Below are positions 5,309-43,422 of a DNA stretch of 45,890 bases, piece by piece. Source of the stretch: a virus. The first letter of the stretch is position 1, and every line of letters begins with the position of its first letter. Location of the stretch: the IMG/VR virus record IMGVR_UViG_3300048836_001246, positions 1 through 45,890 of that record; one strand, 5' to 3'. A program made the translations under genes and the position numbers. The notes under the pieces were generated by a model, which was given only the letters and a program-made list of their open reading frames with translations, did no database searches and was not told the origin of the DNA.

Positions 5309-5778
5309 GTCCCCACCCTCTCGTCGGTGCCTTCCCAGACGAACTGGCCTTCGCGCCCGACGGGGAAATGTTGGCGGCAGTAGGCGCAGAACGTGCCGCC
5401 GTAGAAGCCGGGGTCGCGAGCGTAGGTCTCGGCCAGCGGCTGCGACATCGTCGTCGTCAAGCCGCAGCCGGACTCGAGCATCGCCTTAGTCCAGTACCGT
5501 CCGACGAGCGGGCTCATGCTTTCGGGGTAGGTCTCGTACAGGACAGGGCTTTCCGGCCCGTCGCCGTGCACCTCACGCTCCTTGGGCGTCAGCGGCCGCG
5601 TCGGGTGCGCCGGCCGGATCCCGACGTGCCGGTACGAACGGCGCACCGGCCGGACGAAGCCCTTGGCCCGTTCCTCGGCCGAGAGGACGACGTAGCCCTT
5701 CTGCATCCCGGTTCGGGGATCGATCTCGCGGTGATCATCGGTGACCGGCGAGCCGTCGGTCAGGGTCGTTCTGGGCAT
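5305..5778 (-). CDS. Phage hypothetical protein with C-terminal CxxC motif
   Basis: The 157-residue soluble protein ends with GGTFCAYCRQHFPVGREGQFVWEG, read here in two parts, a compact zinc-knuckle-like region (C132 and C135). The rest is hydrophilic, with an RPVRRSYRHVG basic stretch. It overlaps both neighbours by a few bases inside the lysis operon. Similar proteins occur between endolysin and spanin genes of alphaproteobacterial phages, but the function is unknown. Confidence 0.6.
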   Translation of the reverse strand: MPRTTLTDGSPVTDDHREIDPRTGMQKGYVVLSAEERAKGFVRPVRRSYRHVGIRPAHPTRPLTPKEREVHGDGPESPVLYETYPESMSPLVGRYWTKAMLESGCGLTTTMSQPLAETYARDPGFYGGTFCAYCRQHFPVGREGQFVWEGTDERVGT

Positions 5779-7745: not shown

Positions 7746-8161
7746 GGCTGCGTCTCCGTGCTGTGGCTGGCGCCCCCTGCCCCTGCCGTAACGCCGCCCG
7801 GCCCGATCTGGATCTTGAGGAGGTTCAACGGGTCGCCGGCCACGCGCCGCATCCAGGCCAGGAACGGCGGCAGGCACCCCATGCCCAGCAGGCCGGTCAG
7901 GAACTTGATCGCTCCGTCCACCTCGCGCGGCATGACGCCGGGCCAGAACAGGTCCGACACCGCGCTCAGCGCCGGCCCCAGGAACGAGGCGGCCGCCAGG
8001 CCGACCGCGACGGCGACGATCCGCCCCCGCGGCGTCAGCCGCTCCAGAAACGCCAACGCCAGCACCGCGCCGGCAAACCCCGGCAGGTATGGCCCGGCCA
8101 GCTTGGCCAAGGCCGCCAGGTGCTTCAGCCCGGCCAGCTGCTCGGGCGATTGATCGGCCAT
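7742..8161 (-). CDS. Membrane protein, holin-like
   Basis: The 139-residue protein has hydrophobic segments near residues 26-43, 48-68 and 84-104, then a glycine-rich tail. Proteins of this type, with FLTGLLGMGCLPPFLAWM near the end, are found beside holin genes in alphaproteobacterial prophages. It overlaps the next gene by GTGA and probably acts in the same lysis unit. Which of the two makes the membrane lesion is not clear. Confidence 0.55.
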   Translation of the reverse strand: MADQSPEQLAGLKHLAALAKLAGPYLPGFAGAVLALAFLERLTPRGRIVAVAVGLAAASFLGPALSAVSDLFWPGVMPREVDGAIKFLTGLLGMGCLPPFLAWMRRVAGDPLNLLKIQIGPGGVTAGAGGASHSTETQP

Positions 8162-29851: not shown

Positions 29852-30484
29852 TCAGGCGTCGGCGACTTCGTCCGACACCAGCGACGGCATCGTTTCGGCC
29901 GACTTGCGCGCCTGCTCGGCCGCCCTCGTCCGGATCGCCCGGAACTCGGTGCGCAGCAGGTGCACCACGTCGCGCTGCGGCACCTCGAACTTCGCCGCCA
30001 CCGCATGCGCCAGGTCCGCCAGCGACCCCTCGAACACGTTCAGCATGGCGGCGGCCACCGTGGTCAGCGCCGCCCGCGTATGGTCGGCGCGGACATAGGT
30101 CCCGCGCCGCGCCAGCTCCTTCTCGGCCGCGTCGCGGTTGCGGAACTGAATCTCGCGCAGCTTCTCCGCGCGCATCTGCTCTTCGAACGGATCGACCAGG
30201 GCTGGCCGCGCCGGCGCCGCTTCATGCGAACCGGATTCGCCTCCCGGCAGCTGGGTGCCGATGCCGTTGCCGAACCGCTGGCCGATATCCATCGCGCCGC
30301 GCAGCTGCGCCCGGGCGACCTCGACGATGATCCGGGCCGAGCGCCCCTCGCCGACCAGGGCGGTGGGTTTGATTTTTCCTTCCGAGAGCCACTGGGACAC
30401 GCGCCCGGGCGTCACGTTGCAGAGCCGAGCGAACTCGCCCTTCGAGACGACGTCGCCGGCCCCAGCATGCGCTGCTGCGACCAT
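29852..30484 (-). CDS. Terminase small subunit, Nu1-like
   Basis: The 210-residue protein opens with a MerR-like winged helix (KGEFARLCNVTPGRVSQWLSEGKI, about residues 15-38), as in lambda Nu1. A helical region (EEQMRAEKLREIQFRNRDAAEKEL) and a C-terminal domain that probably contacts the large subunit follow. It lies directly upstream of the large terminase. The 205 bases before the gene are the expected place for a cos site, which I cannot identify by sequence alone. Confidence 0.82.
   Translation of the reverse strand: MVAAAHAGAGDVVSKGEFARLCNVTPGRVSQWLSEGKIKPTALVGEGRSARIIVEVARAQLRGAMDIGQRFGNGIGTQLPGGESGSHEAAPARPALVDPFEEQMRAEKLREIQFRNRDAAEKELARRGTYVRADHTRAALTTVAAAMLNVFEGSLADLAHAVAAKFEVPQRDVVHLLRTEFRAIRTRAAEQARKSAETMPSLVSDEVADA
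30226..30240 (+). repeat. Dispersed palindrome copy (GCGAA-CCGGA-TTCGC)
   Basis: Perfect copy inside the small terminase gene, read in a different frame (ESGSH) from the large terminase copy. Confidence 0.6.
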
Positions 30485-35065: not shown

Positions 35066-35114
35066 ACGGGAGCTGTGCCAGCGTTTGCGGAGATGCTGAA
35101 TGTAGGGGGTGGCC

Positions 35115-35609
35115 ATGGGCAGGAGACTTCGGATGGAGCCTCGCGTTACGCCGCGCAACGCCATCGCCACGCGAAGCCAGCGGGCTGCCGAGAGAGATCG
35201 CTGGGAAGCGCGGATTGCTCTGCTGGACGAGCGACGAGAGTTCTGGCTCCGGCGTTCCATTGCTGTGGTCGGATTGGCAAACACAGCAGCAGTGGTGGCG
35301 CTCGGCTCTGCAGTACTTAACGCCGACGACAAACCTGCAATGGCGCAGCTTGTCATCGAGCCGATCCGGTGGTTCAGCGCCGGTATGCTCCTCAACGGCT
35401 TCGCGTTGATAATTATTGGCTCCTACGTAGCGTTTCGCGCGAAATCTATCCGCCTCCGCTACGAGCCCAGCGAGAAGGAGAAGTACGTAAGGGTCAATAC
35501 TGTGGTGTTGCTCTACGCGAGCAGCATTACAGATCTTCTCGCTTCGGGTGCATTTTCCATGGGCGTCGCAACCGCGATCGGTGTAGTCGCCGGCTTGGCT
35601 CATGGTTGA
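35115..35609 (+). CDS. Small membrane protein, probable moron
   Basis: The 164-residue protein starts at an ATG with TAGGGGG upstream. It has a basic, helical N-terminus (about 1-45) and hydrophobic segments near 49-68, 85-108 and 135-160. It lies on the plus strand between leftward replication genes and has lower GC. Its stop is 5 bases from the convergent methyltransferase stop. Structure and setting resemble the membrane genes at 6733 and 43832. Function is unknown; superinfection exclusion or host modification is possible. Confidence 0.7.
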   Translation: MGRRLRMEPRVTPRNAIATRSQRAAERDRWEARIALLDERREFWLRRSIAVVGLANTAAVVALGSAVLNADDKPAMAQLVIEPIRWFSAGMLLNGFALIIIGSYVAFRAKSIRLRYEPSEKEKYVRVNTVVLLYASSITDLLASGAFSMGVATAIGVVAGLAHG

Positions 35610-36573: not shown

Positions 36574-36948
36574 TCACCCGTGGATGTCGGCCCGCTCGGG
36601 CCGCTGCGGCGCATCGTCCAGCGCCTGGAGGACCGCCAGGCAGGCGTCGGCCAGGTCGGCCAGCGCGCCCGCCTCGGCGATGCGGGCGGTGGCCAGCATC
36701 CCCGGCCACCGTTCGGTCATCCGGCACAGCCGGTCGAAGGGCGATCCGGCCACGGCCTGGCCGCTGGGCATCGTCCGCCCCCGTACGGCGTTGCGGGCCT
36801 TGGCGACGGCCTTGATGTCGCCCGCCGGGTCCTGAGCGGCCTCTCGCGCCACCCGGGCCAGCCGGCTGAAACGCCTCATGTCCTCCGGCGTCGGGGGCAG
36901 GGCGCGCGCAGCCTTGCGCCGCGCCAGGCGGTTGCGACGGTGCGTCAT
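36574..36948 (-). CDS. Early operon hypothetical protein (124 aa)
   Basis: A very basic N-terminus (RRNRLARRKAARA) is followed by helical segments; no motif is recognised. Its ATG at 36948 overlaps the stop of the gene beginning at 37376 (ATGA). It lies 3 bases before the next gene. Function unknown. Confidence 0.55.
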   Translation of the reverse strand: MTHRRNRLARRKAARALPPTPEDMRRFSRLARVAREAAQDPAGDIKAVAKARNAVRGRTMPSGQAVAGSPFDRLCRMTERWPGMLATARIAEAGALADLADACLAVLQALDDAPQRPERADIHG

Positions 36949-37376
36949 GGGCGGGGCTCCGGAGGAGGGGCCTCGCCGCCGGCCGAGGGGCAGGTGCCAC
37001 CGGCGGCGAGGCGTGCTTCCCTGCGAGCGTCCAGACTCAGAGGGGAGCAGTTGGAATGACGGAGGGCGAGATCACGGCCTTGGCGGCGCTTGAATTGGTC
37101 GAGGACGTGATTGTCCTTCTGGGCCTCGCCGAGCCGGAGCTGGTGAAACGGTTCATCGACGAGCGCAGCGAAGTCGCAGAGAGTTTTGCGATCGCGAAAC
37201 CCAAGCCGGGCGAACGGCCTGAGATGGCGGCGTTTCGCGCGGCGAAGCGCACGAAGCTTCTCGCGCTGCAGACCGCGGCGCGCCGCATCAAGGAAGGCCT
37301 TGATGCCTGAGTCATCGTCCGGCCGGACAGCCGCGCAGGCGGCCTTGTAAGCCGCGTAGAGGGTTTCCGCGCTCAC
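36945..37376 (-). CDS. Early operon ORF overlapped by an antisense gene
   Basis: A GTG start (37376) overlaps the previous stop and the end overlaps the next ATG, so both ends look like operon junctions. The first 23 residues (SAETLYAAYKAACAAVRPDDD) and the last 30 (SLDARREARLAAGGTCPSAGG) are protein-like. The middle, however, is the complement of a convincing plus-strand gene (37056-37310) and has poor character. I think a small gene was inserted into this ORF in the opposite orientation, by chance keeping it open. Whether a 143-residue product is made is doubtful. Confidence 0.4.
   Translation of the reverse strand: MSAETLYAAYKAACAAVRPDDDSGIKAFLDAARRGLQREKLRALRRAKRRHLRPFARLGFRDRKTLCDFAALVDEPFHQLRLGEAQKDNHVLDQFKRRQGRDLALRHSNCSPLSLDARREARLAAGGTCPSAGGEAPPPEPRP
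37056..37310 (+). CDS. Small hypothetical protein (84 aa) inside an antisense ORF
   Basis: An ATG with GAGGGGAGC about 8 bases upstream starts a helical protein (ITALAALELVEDVIVLLGLAE) with a basic C-terminus. Hydrophobic pattern and codon use are those of a real gene, unlike the reverse strand. It ends just before the 35-bp boundary repeat. Function unknown; it may be a lysogenic or regulatory small protein. Confidence 0.65.
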   Translation: MTEGEITALAALELVEDVIVLLGLAEPELVKRFIDERSEVAESFAIAKPKPGERPEMAAFRAAKRTKLLALQTAARRIKEGLDA

Positions 37377-37405
37377 TGGATGTCCTCCGGGACGGAGGCC
37401 GGCTC
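37371..37405. repeat. 35-bp boundary repeat, copy 1
   Basis: Shares all but one or two bases with copies at 37931 and 38474. On the minus strand it encodes EPASVPEDIQ-stop and supplies the GTGAGC start of the next ORF. It includes the short inverted repeat CCTCC/GGAGG. Confidence 0.75.
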
Positions 37406-37936
37406 GCCGGCGGGGGCGGTTGGACCACCCCCGCCGACTCGCCTCACGGTGGCGTCGTCACAACCCTCACCGGAGCCGATTTCATGGACGCCCAGGCCGC
37501 CGCGCTGCGCGATCTCACCGTCGTCATTCAGGCCATCGTCGCCGAACTGGAGCGCGCCGACCCGGGCTTCGCAAACCGGGTCAGCAAGCGCCTCGGCGTC
37601 ATGATCACCAGCGACAGCCGGCTGTCCGCCGCCCGGGCGATCGTCAGTGACGGCGCCGCCCACAGCTTCCGCATCTAGCGCCTCGCCCGCGTCAGCGGCG
37701 GTGTTGAGCAGGGTCGCGATATGGCGCGCTTCCGCAGCCGACAGGGGCGCCCAATCCCGGCGGGGCAGTCGGTATGGGTCCTTTCCGGGCGGCTCGCCGA
37801 TGCTGAGCACGACATGCCCGTCTGCTCGGTGGACGGTGACCGTCGTGACGTACTCATAGGTCGTGGTGCTGGACCAGGACTGGCTCACGCCATCATCGGC
37901 CAACGTCGTCACGCGCGGGGATCGTTGGGTGCTCAC
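37373..37936 (-). CDS. Early operon protein with shared C-terminal tail
   Basis: A GTG start at 37936 (VSTQRSPRVTTLADDG) gives up to 187 residues. The first 85 residues are convincing (TVHRADGHVVLSIGE, then LSAAEARHIATLLNTA). Residues about 87-150 lie opposite a plus-strand gene (37484-37678) and look poor. The end is GEPASVPEDIQ, nearly the tail shared with two neighbours. The original protein was probably shorter and interrupted near its 3' end. A similar domain (AEARHIA, DEAKHLA) occurs in the next upstream gene, so the two may be related. Function unknown. Confidence 0.5.
   Translation of the reverse strand: MSTQRSPRVTTLADDGVSQSWSSTTTYEYVTTVTVHRADGHVVLSIGEPPGKDPYRLPRRDWAPLSAAEARHIATLLNTAADAGEALDAEAVGGAVTDDRPGGGQPAVAGDHDAEALADPVCEARVGALQFGDDGLNDDGEIAQRGGLGVHEIGSGEGCDDATVRRVGGGGPTAPAGEPASVPEDIQ
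37484..37678 (+). CDS. Small helical protein (64 aa) antisense to an early gene
   Basis: It starts at an ATG with CCGGAG upstream and reads MDAQAAALRDLTVVIQAIVA, then a basic helical region and RLSAARAIVSDGAAH. The sequence looks like a genuine compact helical protein and is better than its complement. The gene lies in the 3' part of the minus-strand ORF at 37373. I do not recognise it. Confidence 0.55.
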   Translation: MDAQAAALRDLTVVIQAIVAELERADPGFANRVSKRLGVMITSDSRLSAARAIVSDGAAHSFRI

Positions 37937-37965
37937 TGGACGTCCTCCGGGACGGAGGCGGGCTC
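37931..37965. repeat. 35-bp boundary repeat, copy 2
   Basis: At the 3' end of the gene at 37933-38184, encoding EPASVPEDVQ-stop; the stop overlaps the GTGAGC start at 37936. Confidence 0.75.
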
Positions 37966-38184
37966 AGGCCAGATCCGGCGGGCCAGATGTTTGGCCTCGT
38001 CCGGTCCGAGTTGCAGCTCAGCCCGCTGTCCGCCGATGCTCAGCTCCAGACGCGCGGAACCGTCCGCCCCGGGAAAGGCCTCGACTGTCGTAAAGGTGGC
38101 GCGATAGCCTGCCACACCGGCGGGGATCTCGATCCCCCGCCCCGGGGGAGGGACTTCGATGCTGTCGATTTCGCTAGGGGACAT
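37933..38184 (-). CDS. Early operon protein (83 aa) with shared C-terminal tail
   Basis: It starts at the ATG at 38184 with GAGG 10 bases upstream. Residues 25-70 (YRATFTTVEAFPGADGSARLELSIGG) are beta-rich, then LGPDEAKHLARRIW and the tail EPASVPEDVQ. The similar arrangement in the next gene (strands, then AEARHIA) suggests duplication. Its start overlaps the divergent gene at 38159 by 26 bases. Function unknown. Confidence 0.55.
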   Translation of the reverse strand: MSPSEIDSIEVPPPGRGIEIPAGVAGYRATFTTVEAFPGADGSARLELSIGGQRAELQLGPDEAKHLARRIWPEPASVPEDVQ

Positions 38185-38464
38185 TCTGAAGGTCCTCGAA
38201 CAGTTCAAGGCGTGGCCGCGCATGACGGCGGCCCCGGATCGGATCGATGCGCTGGAGAAGCGGGTTGCGGCCTTGGAGACCCGGCTGGCCGCACCTGCCC
38301 GGCCCCGCACGCAACCCTGCGAGTTCTGCGATGAGGGGAACCTTCGGCTTCAGGACGAGAAGCTCGACCCCGGCCCGTTCGGACGCCTGGGCCGAAAGAT
38401 CAGAGTCCTGAAATGCGACCAGCCCGACTGCGGGCGTACCATCGAGCGCTATCTCGACCCCTAG
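38159..38464 (+). CDS. Coiled-coil zinc-ribbon protein (101 aa)
   Basis: The ATG at 38159 has a strong GGGAGGG 5-6 bases upstream. Residues 27-44 (DRIDALEKRVAALETRLA) form a short coiled coil; then CEFC (54-57) and CDQPDC (87-92) make a zinc-ribbon-like pair set. The gene is on the plus strand within the leftward early region, between the Cro-like gene and the gene at 37933. It might be a regulator expressed in the lysogen. No specific family is recognised. Confidence 0.7.
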   Translation: MLSISLGDILKVLEQFKAWPRMTAAPDRIDALEKRVAALETRLAAPARPRTQPCEFCDEGNLRLQDEKLDPGPFGRLGRKIRVLKCDQPDCGRTIERYLDP

Positions 38465-38473
38465 CGCGCCGCC

Positions 38474-38508
38474 GCTCACTGGACGTCCTCCGGGACGGAG
38501 GCCGGCTC
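38474..38508. repeat. 35-bp boundary repeat, copy 3
   Basis: At the 3' end of the Cro-like gene, encoding EPASVPEDVQ-stop. The following GTGAGC begins only a poor ORF, because the plus-strand gene at 38159 occupies the space. Confidence 0.75.
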
Positions 38509-38763
38509 GGAGTGCGCGAGGTAGCGTTCGTCGCCGCGCGGCTCGAAGTCTGCGAAGGCGACGGCCTCGCCCAGCTCCAGCCGCGCGCCATCGATGATCC
38601 GCTGGCGAAGGCGCGGCGGAACCACGCCCCCCGTGCCGCCCTTGTCGGGCGGCCAGGTCCAGGCATGGACGCGGCCACGGTGGCGCTTGGTCCAGCGGGC
38701 GATCTTCTCGACGCCGAAGCGCCCGATGATACGGTGCGCAGGTGTGGTGACGGTCTGGGTCAT
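38476..38763 (-). CDS. Cro-like early regulator
   Basis: The 95-residue protein contains AHRIIGRFGVEKIARWTKRH followed by RVHAWTWPPDKGGTGGVVPP, a helix-turn-helix pattern common in small phage regulators of the carph-isopro type. It ends with the shared tail EPASVPEDVQ. Its ATG lies 102 bases from the divergent repressor gene, with three operator-like palindromes between them. By analogy with lambda it would favour lytic development. Confidence 0.72.
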   Translation of the reverse strand: MTQTVTTPAHRIIGRFGVEKIARWTKRHRGRVHAWTWPPDKGGTGGVVPPRLRQRIIDGARLELGEAVAFADFEPRGDERYLAHSEPASVPEDVQ

Positions 38764-39910: not shown

Positions 39911-40231
39911 ATGACGCCCCAGGAAAGCTCCGTAGAGGCTGGCGCCCGCGCCGATCGCGTCTGCGAGCTGCTTCTCCATCTGGAGACGGCCGCCGCGGTC
40001 GGGTTCCGCCTCGCCGCCCTGATTGTCCATGAGGCCGCCGGCGCCCGCGCCGTCGTCCACTGCGTGCTGTCGGGCCGGTCGTTTCTGCTTACGCCTGACG
40101 AAGCCCGACTGACGAGCCGCTGCATCGCGTTCGAGGACCGCCGCCGGGCGACGGGCTGGCTCGCCTCGCTGTTCGAGACCGCCGCCTGCGACGCCGAGGC
40201 GATGGCCGCGGCCGCCGGGGCGGCCGCGTGA
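39911..40231 (+). CDS. First gene of the rightward early operon (106 aa)
   Basis: It starts at an ATG with GAGG about 9 bases upstream. It is a helical and strand-mixed soluble protein with GRSFLLTPDEARLTSRCIAF in the middle, a pattern that recurs in small early proteins of this window (LGPDEAKHLA, LSAAEARHIA). That likeness suggests a shared small domain. Function unknown. Confidence 0.65.
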   Translation: MTPQESSVEAGARADRVCELLLHLETAAAVGFRLAALIVHEAAGARAVVHCVLSGRSFLLTPDEARLTSRCIAFEDRRRATGWLASLFETAACDAEAMAAAAGAAA

Positions 40232-41275: not shown

Positions 41276-43422
41276 GCGCGCCCGTCGTAAAGCCGCGCGA
41301 GACGCGCGCCCCGGTCTTCCCGGCGGTCGTCCACACCTATACCGACCTGCTGCGGGTGTTGGACCAGACCAAGGCGCCGATGTCGGCCGCGCAGCTGGCC
41401 GAGGCCACCGACCGGGTGGTGTCCAACGTCCGCCGCGACCTTCCCAAGCTCCGGGAGGCTGGCGTCATCGCAATCAGGGGCGACGCGATCGAGATCACGC
41501 CCAAGGGCGAACGCTGGGTCGACGGCCAGGACGTCGCCGAGGGCAGGGGGCGTCCCACAGTCGAGGCAGGCGCGCTGGCCGAGCCGCTCGCGCGCCGCGC
41601 CGCCCATGCGGCCTTCCGTCCGAACCCGGAACAGCCGCGCAAGGCCTTCGACGAGGCCGTCATCCGGGGCATCGCCGAGACCATCGTGGCCGACGCCCAG
41701 GCCGGCGGCGCGGGCGTGCTGCAGCCGCTGCTGGTGCGCCCGCGCGATCCCGCTGACCCGCTGGACGGCGACGAGGCGAATCCGGTTCGCATGATCTGGG
41801 CGGGCGAACAACGCTGGCGCGCCATCGGCCTGCTGATCGCGGAAGGTCGACTACCCGACATACTCGATCCGGCGCGGGGTGGCGGCATCCCGTTCGAAGA
41901 GCGGGCCGAGCCGCCCGGCGGCGCCGCCTTCCTCGCCCTGGTCGAGAACGGGGCCCGGTCCGACCTCGACCCGCTGGAGGAGGCCTTCGCCTTCCTCGAC
42001 TACGTCACGCGCGAGGGGCTCTCGGCCCGTCAGGCGGCGATCAACACCGGCCGCGCCGCGAAAGGGGAGGGCGGCGTCCGCACCGTCCAGATCCGGCTCA
42101 AGGTCGCCCGCGAGGCGACGCCCGAGGCCATCGCCCGCTATCGCCGCGACCGCGACTGGAACGCCCTCGTCGACAGCGTCCAGCAGAAGGGCGAGACGCC
42201 CGAGGACCTGCGCGCCCGCGCCATCCGCAAGGGGGTCGCCGGGCTCATGGGGCGCCGCCGCCTGGCCCTGATCGAACTGGCCCACAAGGCGGTGCTGGAG
42301 CCGGACGACAGCGGCACCGGCCGCCAGGCCGTCAAGCGCAGCGGCTTCAAGGACCCGACCGGCGCGATGGAGGCCCTGATCCAGCACGCCGGCGCGATCG
42401 TTACCGATCGCGCGGCGCGCATCAGCGACGTCGCCCGGACCTGGCTGATCGAGGAGGGGCTGCTCGATCCGGAGAACCCGCGCCGCACGCTCGCCGCCGC
42501 CTGGCGGGAGCACGGCCTGCTGGAGACGACGATCGACGACCGCCTGACGGCCGAGCCGATCGTCTTCTCGACCGAATGGCTCAACCTGCCGCCGCCGGCG
42601 CAGCCTGCGCCGGACGAGGACGAGCCGACGATGTTCGATCCGCCGCCGGCGCCGGCGACGCGGTCGCTGGCCCAGATCCTTCCCGGTCGCTCGGTGATCA
42701 CCCTGGCGGAGATCCTGCACCTCGCGCCCGCGCCGGACGAGGGCGCCTTCATCCCGCAGGCGCAGGCCGGGAAGTACTGGCTCGACGCCAACGTCAGCAC
42801 GATGAAGGACGCCGGGCTGCTGACGCTCATCCATGAGCCCGGCCAGCCGCCCTTCGTCCGCATTACCGACACGGGGCTCCAGGCCTTCGGCGCGGCTCTT
42901 GCCGAGCGGGGCCAGGCCTACACCAGCTTTCCTCTCTCGCGCGGAAATCTTGACCGCATCCGCGGGGCCTGGGGTCAGGCAGGCTGGCCGCAGGACGTCT
43001 ACGGCATGGTCACCGAGTGGCTCAACATCGAGCCCGCGCAAGATGACCCGCAGGCGGCCCTTCTGCCCTCAGCCGCCGCCGCGCTGGAGGAGGAGCCGGA
43101 AGACGACCGCACGGTCGATGACATCCTCGGCCCGCTGGCCCTGATGAACATCGTCGAGGCGGCCGACCCGGCGAATGGCCCCGCCTTCCTGTCCGGCCTG
43201 TTCGAGCGGGTCGGCTTCAGGGGGCCGTTCGTGGCCAGCCAGGCGCGGGAGGAGGAAGGTGTCGTTCACGACGCCACCGGCCGACTGCTATTGACCTGTG
43301 ACCAGCACGGTGAGGAAACGCATGACATGGCGCTCGCCCAGGCGATCGTGGTCGCCGCCGCGCTCAACGCTTCGCTGGGCCTGTCGGTCGACGTCTCTTC
43401 GGCGGCGCGGGAGGCCGCGTAA
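41272..43422 (+). CDS. Winged-helix plus ParB-domain protein (716 aa)
   Basis: Residues 20-90 form a predicted winged helix (TKAPMSAAQLAEATDRVVSN, VIAIRGDAIEITPKGERW). Residues 112-190 form a ParB/Srx N-terminal domain (FRPNPEQPRKAFDEAVIRGI, then MIWAGEQRWRAIGLL). A middle region with GLSARQAAINTGRAAKG could be a further helix-turn-helix, and the C-terminal 280 residues repeat winged-helix-like patterns. ParB-domain proteins in phages range from partition factors to transcription regulators, and some hydrolyse CTP. No parS site is visible, so a regulatory role is as likely as segregation. It is the largest early gene and contains one dispersed palindrome. Confidence 0.78.
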   Translation: MSAPVVKPRETRAPVFPAVVHTYTDLLRVLDQTKAPMSAAQLAEATDRVVSNVRRDLPKLREAGVIAIRGDAIEITPKGERWVDGQDVAEGRGRPTVEAGALAEPLARRAAHAAFRPNPEQPRKAFDEAVIRGIAETIVADAQAGGAGVLQPLLVRPRDPADPLDGDEANPVRMIWAGEQRWRAIGLLIAEGRLPDILDPARGGGIPFEERAEPPGGAAFLALVENGARSDLDPLEEAFAFLDYVTREGLSARQAAINTGRAAKGEGGVRTVQIRLKVAREATPEAIARYRRDRDWNALVDSVQQKGETPEDLRARAIRKGVAGLMGRRRLALIELAHKAVLEPDDSGTGRQAVKRSGFKDPTGAMEALIQHAGAIVTDRAARISDVARTWLIEEGLLDPENPRRTLAAAWREHGLLETTIDDRLTAEPIVFSTEWLNLPPPAQPAPDEDEPTMFDPPPAPATRSLAQILPGRSVITLAEILHLAPAPDEGAFIPQAQAGKYWLDANVSTMKDAGLLTLIHEPGQPPFVRITDTGLQAFGAALAERGQAYTSFPLSRGNLDRIRGAWGQAGWPQDVYGMVTEWLNIEPAQDDPQAALLPSAAAALEEEPEDDRTVDDILGPLALMNIVEAADPANGPAFLSGLFERVGFRGPFVASQAREEEGVVHDATGRLLLTCDQHGEETHDMALAQAIVVAAALNASLGLSVDVSSAAREAA
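41776..41790 (-). repeat. Dispersed palindrome copy (GCGAA-CCGGA-TTCGC on minus strand)
   Basis: Perfect copy within the ParB-domain gene, read as ANPVR as in the large terminase copy. Confidence 0.6.

Follow-up and report, generated by a model that had tools for sequence, protein, structure and literature searches.

A 35-nt repeat behind the cro-like gene of a Caulobacteraceae-type temperate phage as a probable gene-boundary sequence

It is an old question whether short boundary sequences direct phage mosaicism or whether mosaicism is random and then filtered by selection, and to our knowledge clear boundary repeats in phages have rarely been found. The locus described here, in which three reading frames with different bodies end in a common C-terminal tail encoded by a short repeat, raises this question in the early region of a single genome.

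The window, that is, the whole stretch of DNA analysed, comprised the 45,890 bases of the whole virus record IMGVR_UViG_3300048836_001246. It has the layout of a temperate siphovirus (tail genes, primase, S24 repressor and integrase), and relatives of its primase occur in viral contig L015 (82%), Brevundimonas bacteroides (L018) and a Phenylobacterium genome bin (L017). The window phage is a temperate phage of Caulobacteraceae type. Gene A weakly matched Cro-like proteins annotated in phages phiLM21 and Pben1, and a peptide-pattern search of viral contigs found no close relatives of gene A, g124 or the repressor. Elsewhere in the window, a lower-GC (approximately 0.55) opposite-strand (plus) ORF with hydrophobic stretches was observed at 35109-35609, with the primase on one side and the upstream early gene on the other; nucleotide similarity to L015 stops there, which suggests another inserted gene. 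A perfect 22-nt inverted repeat (TCATGCGAACCGGATTCGCCTC) was present at 30222-30243 and 41773-41794, with arms 11.5 kb apart and the second arm inside a ParB-like ORF.

Three copies of a 35-nt repeat and the genes between them

The first-pass annotation had placed 35-nt copies at 37371, 37931 and 38474, and all three were found at these positions (Table 1). On the minus strand each copy reads GAGCC(G/C)GCCTCCGTCCCGGAGGAC(G/A)TCCAGTGAGC, which gives EPASVPED(V/I)Q as the final codons, followed by a TGA stop that a GTG start overlaps. The common tail and stop attributed to the minus-strand ORFs A, B and C were likewise confirmed, with TGA lying within GTGAGC in each. A 28-nt core occurs exactly three times in the window compared to no occurrence in 100 dinucleotide shuffles. 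Pairwise identity of the copies was 92-97% inside the repeat and 20-44% in the flanking blocks, with abrupt edges on both sides, and the copies are spaced by 560 and 543 nt. These findings show a short conserved sequence that lies exactly at gene boundaries, at three ORF ends, and such a sharp-edged repeat between unrelated flanks argues for a linker.

Table 1. Features of the early region of the window
Feature	Coordinates	Strand	Remarks
S24-type phage repressor	38799..39425	+	
Gene A, cro-like	38476..38763	-	divergent from repressor
Repeat copy R1	38474..38508	-	end of cro-like ORF A (EPASVPEDVQ); no coding ORF behind
Cargo gene, 101 aa	38159..38464	+	CxxC...CxxxxC, zinc-ribbon-like
Gene B, 83 aa	37933..38184	-	
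Repeat copy R2	37931..37965	-	end of gene B (EPASVPEDVQ), start of gene C
Shine-Dalgarno of R2	37944..37948		
ORF C	37373..37936	-	coding support only ~37679-37936 (about first 86 codons)
Cargo gene, 64 aa	37484..37678	+	
Repeat copy R3	37371..37405	-	end of ORF C (EPASVPEDIQ), GTGAGC of doubtful ORF D
Cargo gene, 84 aa	37056..37310	+	
ORF D	36945..37376	-	at most first 24 codons plausible
g124, conserved early gene	36574..36948	-	far edge of variable interval

An integron attC-like site was rejected as an identity of the repeat, the GTTRRRY and RYYYAAC core boxes being missing and the 35-mer containing neither GTT nor AAC on either strand. No consensus promoter, terminator, Rfam or defence-family match was found in this region.

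Coding scores were expressed as codon-usage log-odds per codon, with 14 window ORFs regarded as clear genes serving as the training set; the coding calls also used the GC-by-position profile. The ORF opened by the GTGAGC of R1 scored -0.20 (non-coding) compared to +0.20 for the 101-aa plus-strand gene with paired cysteines that takes up the same DNA. The second half of ORF C scored 0.095 compared to 0.405 for the antisense 64-aa gene, and ORF D beyond its first codons scored 0.019 compared to 0.339 for the antisense 84-aa gene. Given these three plus-strand genes among the copies, ORF C is convincing only to about its 86th codon and ORF D for 24 codons at most; ORF C in its second half and ORF D over most of its length look like antisense shadows. 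Of the three tailed proteins, A and B are sound, and the third tail is reached only via read-through of antisense DNA. By these scores, the earlier claim that GTGAGC starts the next gene holds at R2 (gene C) and fails at R1, where there is no gene, while at R3 it depends on the doubtful ORF D.

No significant relatives of C were found in 119 genomes of the family, bar one weak match, and for B and C single-sequence structure prediction gave results too weak for a further search. A plus-strand ORF of the window at 39911-40231 weakly resembled gene B (shuffle P 0.003 at a gap penalty of 7) and C (P 0.019), a hint of a small family of dispersed proteins. A GC-rich inverted repeat (GGCGGGGATC tc GATCCCCCGCC) was observed at 38125-38150, at the 5' overlap between gene B and the plus-strand gene at 38159, and may belong to a divergent control region.

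The interval between cro and g124 in related prophages

In relatives, the cro-like gene is followed by a homologue of the conserved early gene g124, usually with a stop/start overlap; g124 itself was found at 4.7e-14 by a profile built without the window. In three loci (L018, L028 and L033) cro abuts the g124 homologue and the interval is empty, whereas 384-1,530 nt of small genes lie between the two in L017, L034, L029, L007 and the window, with opposite-strand ORFs filling the interval in L017, L029 and L034. This comparison of empty and filled intervals places the window repeat in a cargo interval. An opposite-strand gene was also observed directly behind cro in two Caulobacteraceae prophages, in L031 (1757-2170) and in L035 (genome G246, also L056), the two genes being 66-67% identical and resembling, by sequence, a secreted nuclease.

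The same linker, at 30 of 33 nt, was found in L004 at the end of a different cro gene and before an unrelated gene, again at a gene boundary. In the viral contig L007, where the order is repressor, cro, cargo and g124 homologue, the sequence GCCG(A/G)CCG(G/C)GTGCCGGAGGACGTGCAGTGA occurs after cro and again after the next ORF (93% over 30 nt, flanks unrelated), and cro ends in RVPEDVQ with GTGA. In G246 a different junction of 133 bp flanks a small ORF of the opposite strand on both sides, its two copies lying at a spacing of 557 nt; each includes the upstream ORF's end and the beginning of the g124 homologue, and the tails are GVDGGAAS and GVDGGSAS. An 18-nt version of a duplicated junction (GAVQ) was found in L042. 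Within-locus junction pairs reached 31/32 in the window, 30/32 in G246 and 28/32 in L007, compared to peaks of 14-22 in other loci. The L018 junction (FAPVLEAVQ-stop) matched the linker in register at 21 of 28 nt, the best of approximately 3,490 RTGA sites, a set that excludes loci chosen by pattern or BLAST for the cro junction. The same Brevundimonas bacteroides prophage also carries a 21-nt repeat (20/21) at ATGA junctions at 5724-5744 and 7919-7939, with the tails (G/R)ERAA before MSA.

These findings show that, at one syntenic site, related prophages have no cargo, one cargo gene or several, and that the junction repeats there are of several kinds. The variable cargo behind cro, the L004 linker and the duplicated junctions of L007 and G246 support the first-pass proposal of a linker. 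As a tentative generalization, the cro-g124 junction of Caulobacteraceae prophages may be a recurrent site of cargo acquisition, where a small gene, often on the opposite strand, duplicates the junction as it inserts, so that cargo can be stacked or removed with the early operon intact. If this is true, cargo insertion leaves intact both the upstream gene's end and the ribosome-binding start of the gene downstream.

The search for the linker at other gene ends had a mixed outcome: in contrast to the L004 match, no match with up to three mismatches was found in 390 genomes of the Brevundimonas family, which counts against a linker. The back-translated tail ASVPED(V/I)Q-stop gave no match in 257 Gb of genome contigs, a further point against a linker, and one in viral contigs, and BLAST of the 36-mer against phages and plasmids returned only short chance or convergent matches. 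No phage pair was found that has the linker and one flank in common and differs in the other flank; such a pair would be the direct trace of exchange, and its absence also counts against a linker.

Ribosome-binding signals, the shared tail and the origin of the copies

Each copy carries a perfect Shine-Dalgarno (SD) sequence, GGAGG, 7 nt before the GTG, and therefore the E and D of the tail are the SD read in frame. The CCTCCG arm of the repeat is complementary to CGGAGG around the SD. In a context of -40..+20, the SD was predicted to be masked in R1-R3 and L004 (0.02-0.06 unpaired) compared to a median of 0.28 in 18 other junctions. In a longer context the SD of R1 was less masked (0.42), and the folding energy of the hairpin was ordinary compared to shuffles; both results count against the explanation preferred below. 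Because this energy is unexceptional, the hairpin is only a possible part of the mechanism, and it is not general, since the L007 copies have no CCTCC arm. The sequence of a coupling junction, with a stop/start overlap and an SD in the upstream gene, is present in all three copies and is followed by a coding gene only at R2. Translational coupling, as judged from overlap, SD and hairpin, is plausible at only one junction of the three.

The 35-mer is probably a gene-boundary (linker) sequence at the end of cro that was duplicated downstream as small genes entered the cro-g124 interval, carrying the tail as a passenger. It consists of the last approximately 10 codons of the cro-like gene, the SD within them and the stop/start overlap of the next gene. 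Recombination at the junction, or its duplication, would add cargo while the end of cro and a usable start signal were kept. At R2, a ribosome reaching the end of gene B would melt the hairpin that masks the SD and start again on gene C, and the common tail would merely accompany the ribosome-binding site. A point against this explanation is that a convincing downstream gene follows just one of the three copies.

Other origins of the copies were weighed against it. The three genes might have arisen by tandem duplication of one ancestral gene whose bodies diverged fast, only the ribosome-binding end staying constant. A faint pattern common to B and C (LSIG...EA(K/R)H(L/I)A), low-confidence models in which both fold as strand-strand-strand-helix, and the similar spacing of the copies speak for such a history. 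However, alignments of B with C, A with B and A with C were insignificant (shuffle P 0.11-0.43), in keeping with the earlier statement that the three bodies differ, identity falls to background immediately outside the repeat, and the units contain opposite-strand genes of different sequence. Even a deep relation of B and C would leave the confinement of identity to the linker unexplained. Descent of the three from one gene was not demonstrated, a weak resemblance between B and C persists, and tandem duplication is rather improbable. Pure convergence, in which copies without shared descent arrive at an efficient overlapping ribosome-binding junction, would account for the junctions of unrelated phages that were picked only for CCGGAGGAYRTNCARTGAGC and also encode PED(V/I/M)Q at the same SD spacing, followed by a start and a serine, and for a mycobacteriophage gp64/gp63 junction that matches the repeat at 23 of 25 nt. 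Selection for an SD nevertheless does not explain why the copies agree in the spacer and in the 15 nt preceding the SD (GAGCC(G/C)GCCTCCGTC), and the sequences at the phage's other coupled junctions vary widely; convergence as the whole explanation is very improbable.

The repeat could also be conserved for what its peptide or its DNA does. The first-pass suggestion that the tail is a functional tag, for degradation, localisation or partner binding, draws on the fact that, of the five positions that vary among R1-R3 and L004, four are synonymous third positions and that the V/I change is conservative. It found no support, since other prophages carry different tails at the equivalent position (GAVQ, GVDGG(A/S)AS, EACQ and EATQ) and the E and D are forced by the SD in this frame; moreover, the third tailed ORF is largely antisense DNA. 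A tail conserved at this site across phages independently of its nucleotides was not found, and because the tails vary between phages the peptide itself is unlikely to be the conserved unit. The chance that the tail serves as a tag is slim; judged from these sequences, such a function is unlikely and the shared tail is most likely a by-product. Annotators should be aware that common C-terminal tails may stem from ribosome-binding sites and not from protein function. A DNA operator or other protein-binding site of the stoperator kind would fit the dyad symmetry of the repeat (CCTCCGTCCCGGAGG, GGACGTCC), its single orientation and its place in the early region. However, every copy lies in a coding end in register with the stop/start overlap, and neither the repressor-cro control region nor the rest of the window holds a further one; R3 and L004 have a broken GGACGTCC palindrome, and L007 is missing the left arm. 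These points make an operator extremely improbable.

Comparison with known boundary sequences

Translationally coupled stop/start overlaps with a masked SD are a known arrangement. A linker at the end of cro, as preferred here, resembles them in its GTGA overlap, the SD inside the upstream gene and the complementary arm upstream, and differs in that two of the three window copies have no convincing downstream gene. The start-associated sequences (SAS/ESAS) of Cluster K mycobacteriophages are 13 nt long and occur in 11-19 copies, mostly at genes with gaps of >50 bp (PMC3203893). Like them, the window repeat is an over-conserved, SD-bearing sequence just before early-gene starts, and some SAS also have inverted repeats; unlike them, it codes for the tail of the upstream gene. 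Membership in this class was rejected on the basis of three copies rather than at least 10, all of them in ORF ends with a GTGA overlap and not in gaps of >50 bp.

Boundary or linker sequences of lambdoid phages have been proposed to be sites of homologous exchange (Susskind and Botstein 1978; Clark et al. 2001, both cited through PMC3029335 and PMC3233612), in general terms the same mechanism as preferred here. The window repeat is likewise a short conserved sequence at early-gene boundaries. In contrast to the lambdoid linkers, it has several copies in the same genome, and L004 and L007 do no more than suggest exchange between phages. In the Cluster I mycobacteriophage Island3, the adjacent genes 67 and 68 share 18 C-terminal residues via a repeat of approximately 50 bp, and the recombination proposed at that repeat is the mechanism favoured here as well (PMC3029335). 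As in that pair, unrelated bodies in the window receive common C-terminal residues from a short repeat at the gene end. Compared to the two copies of Island3, the window has three copies of 35 nt behind cro, and its repeat differs in having an SD, a stop/start overlap and opposite-strand genes between the copies.
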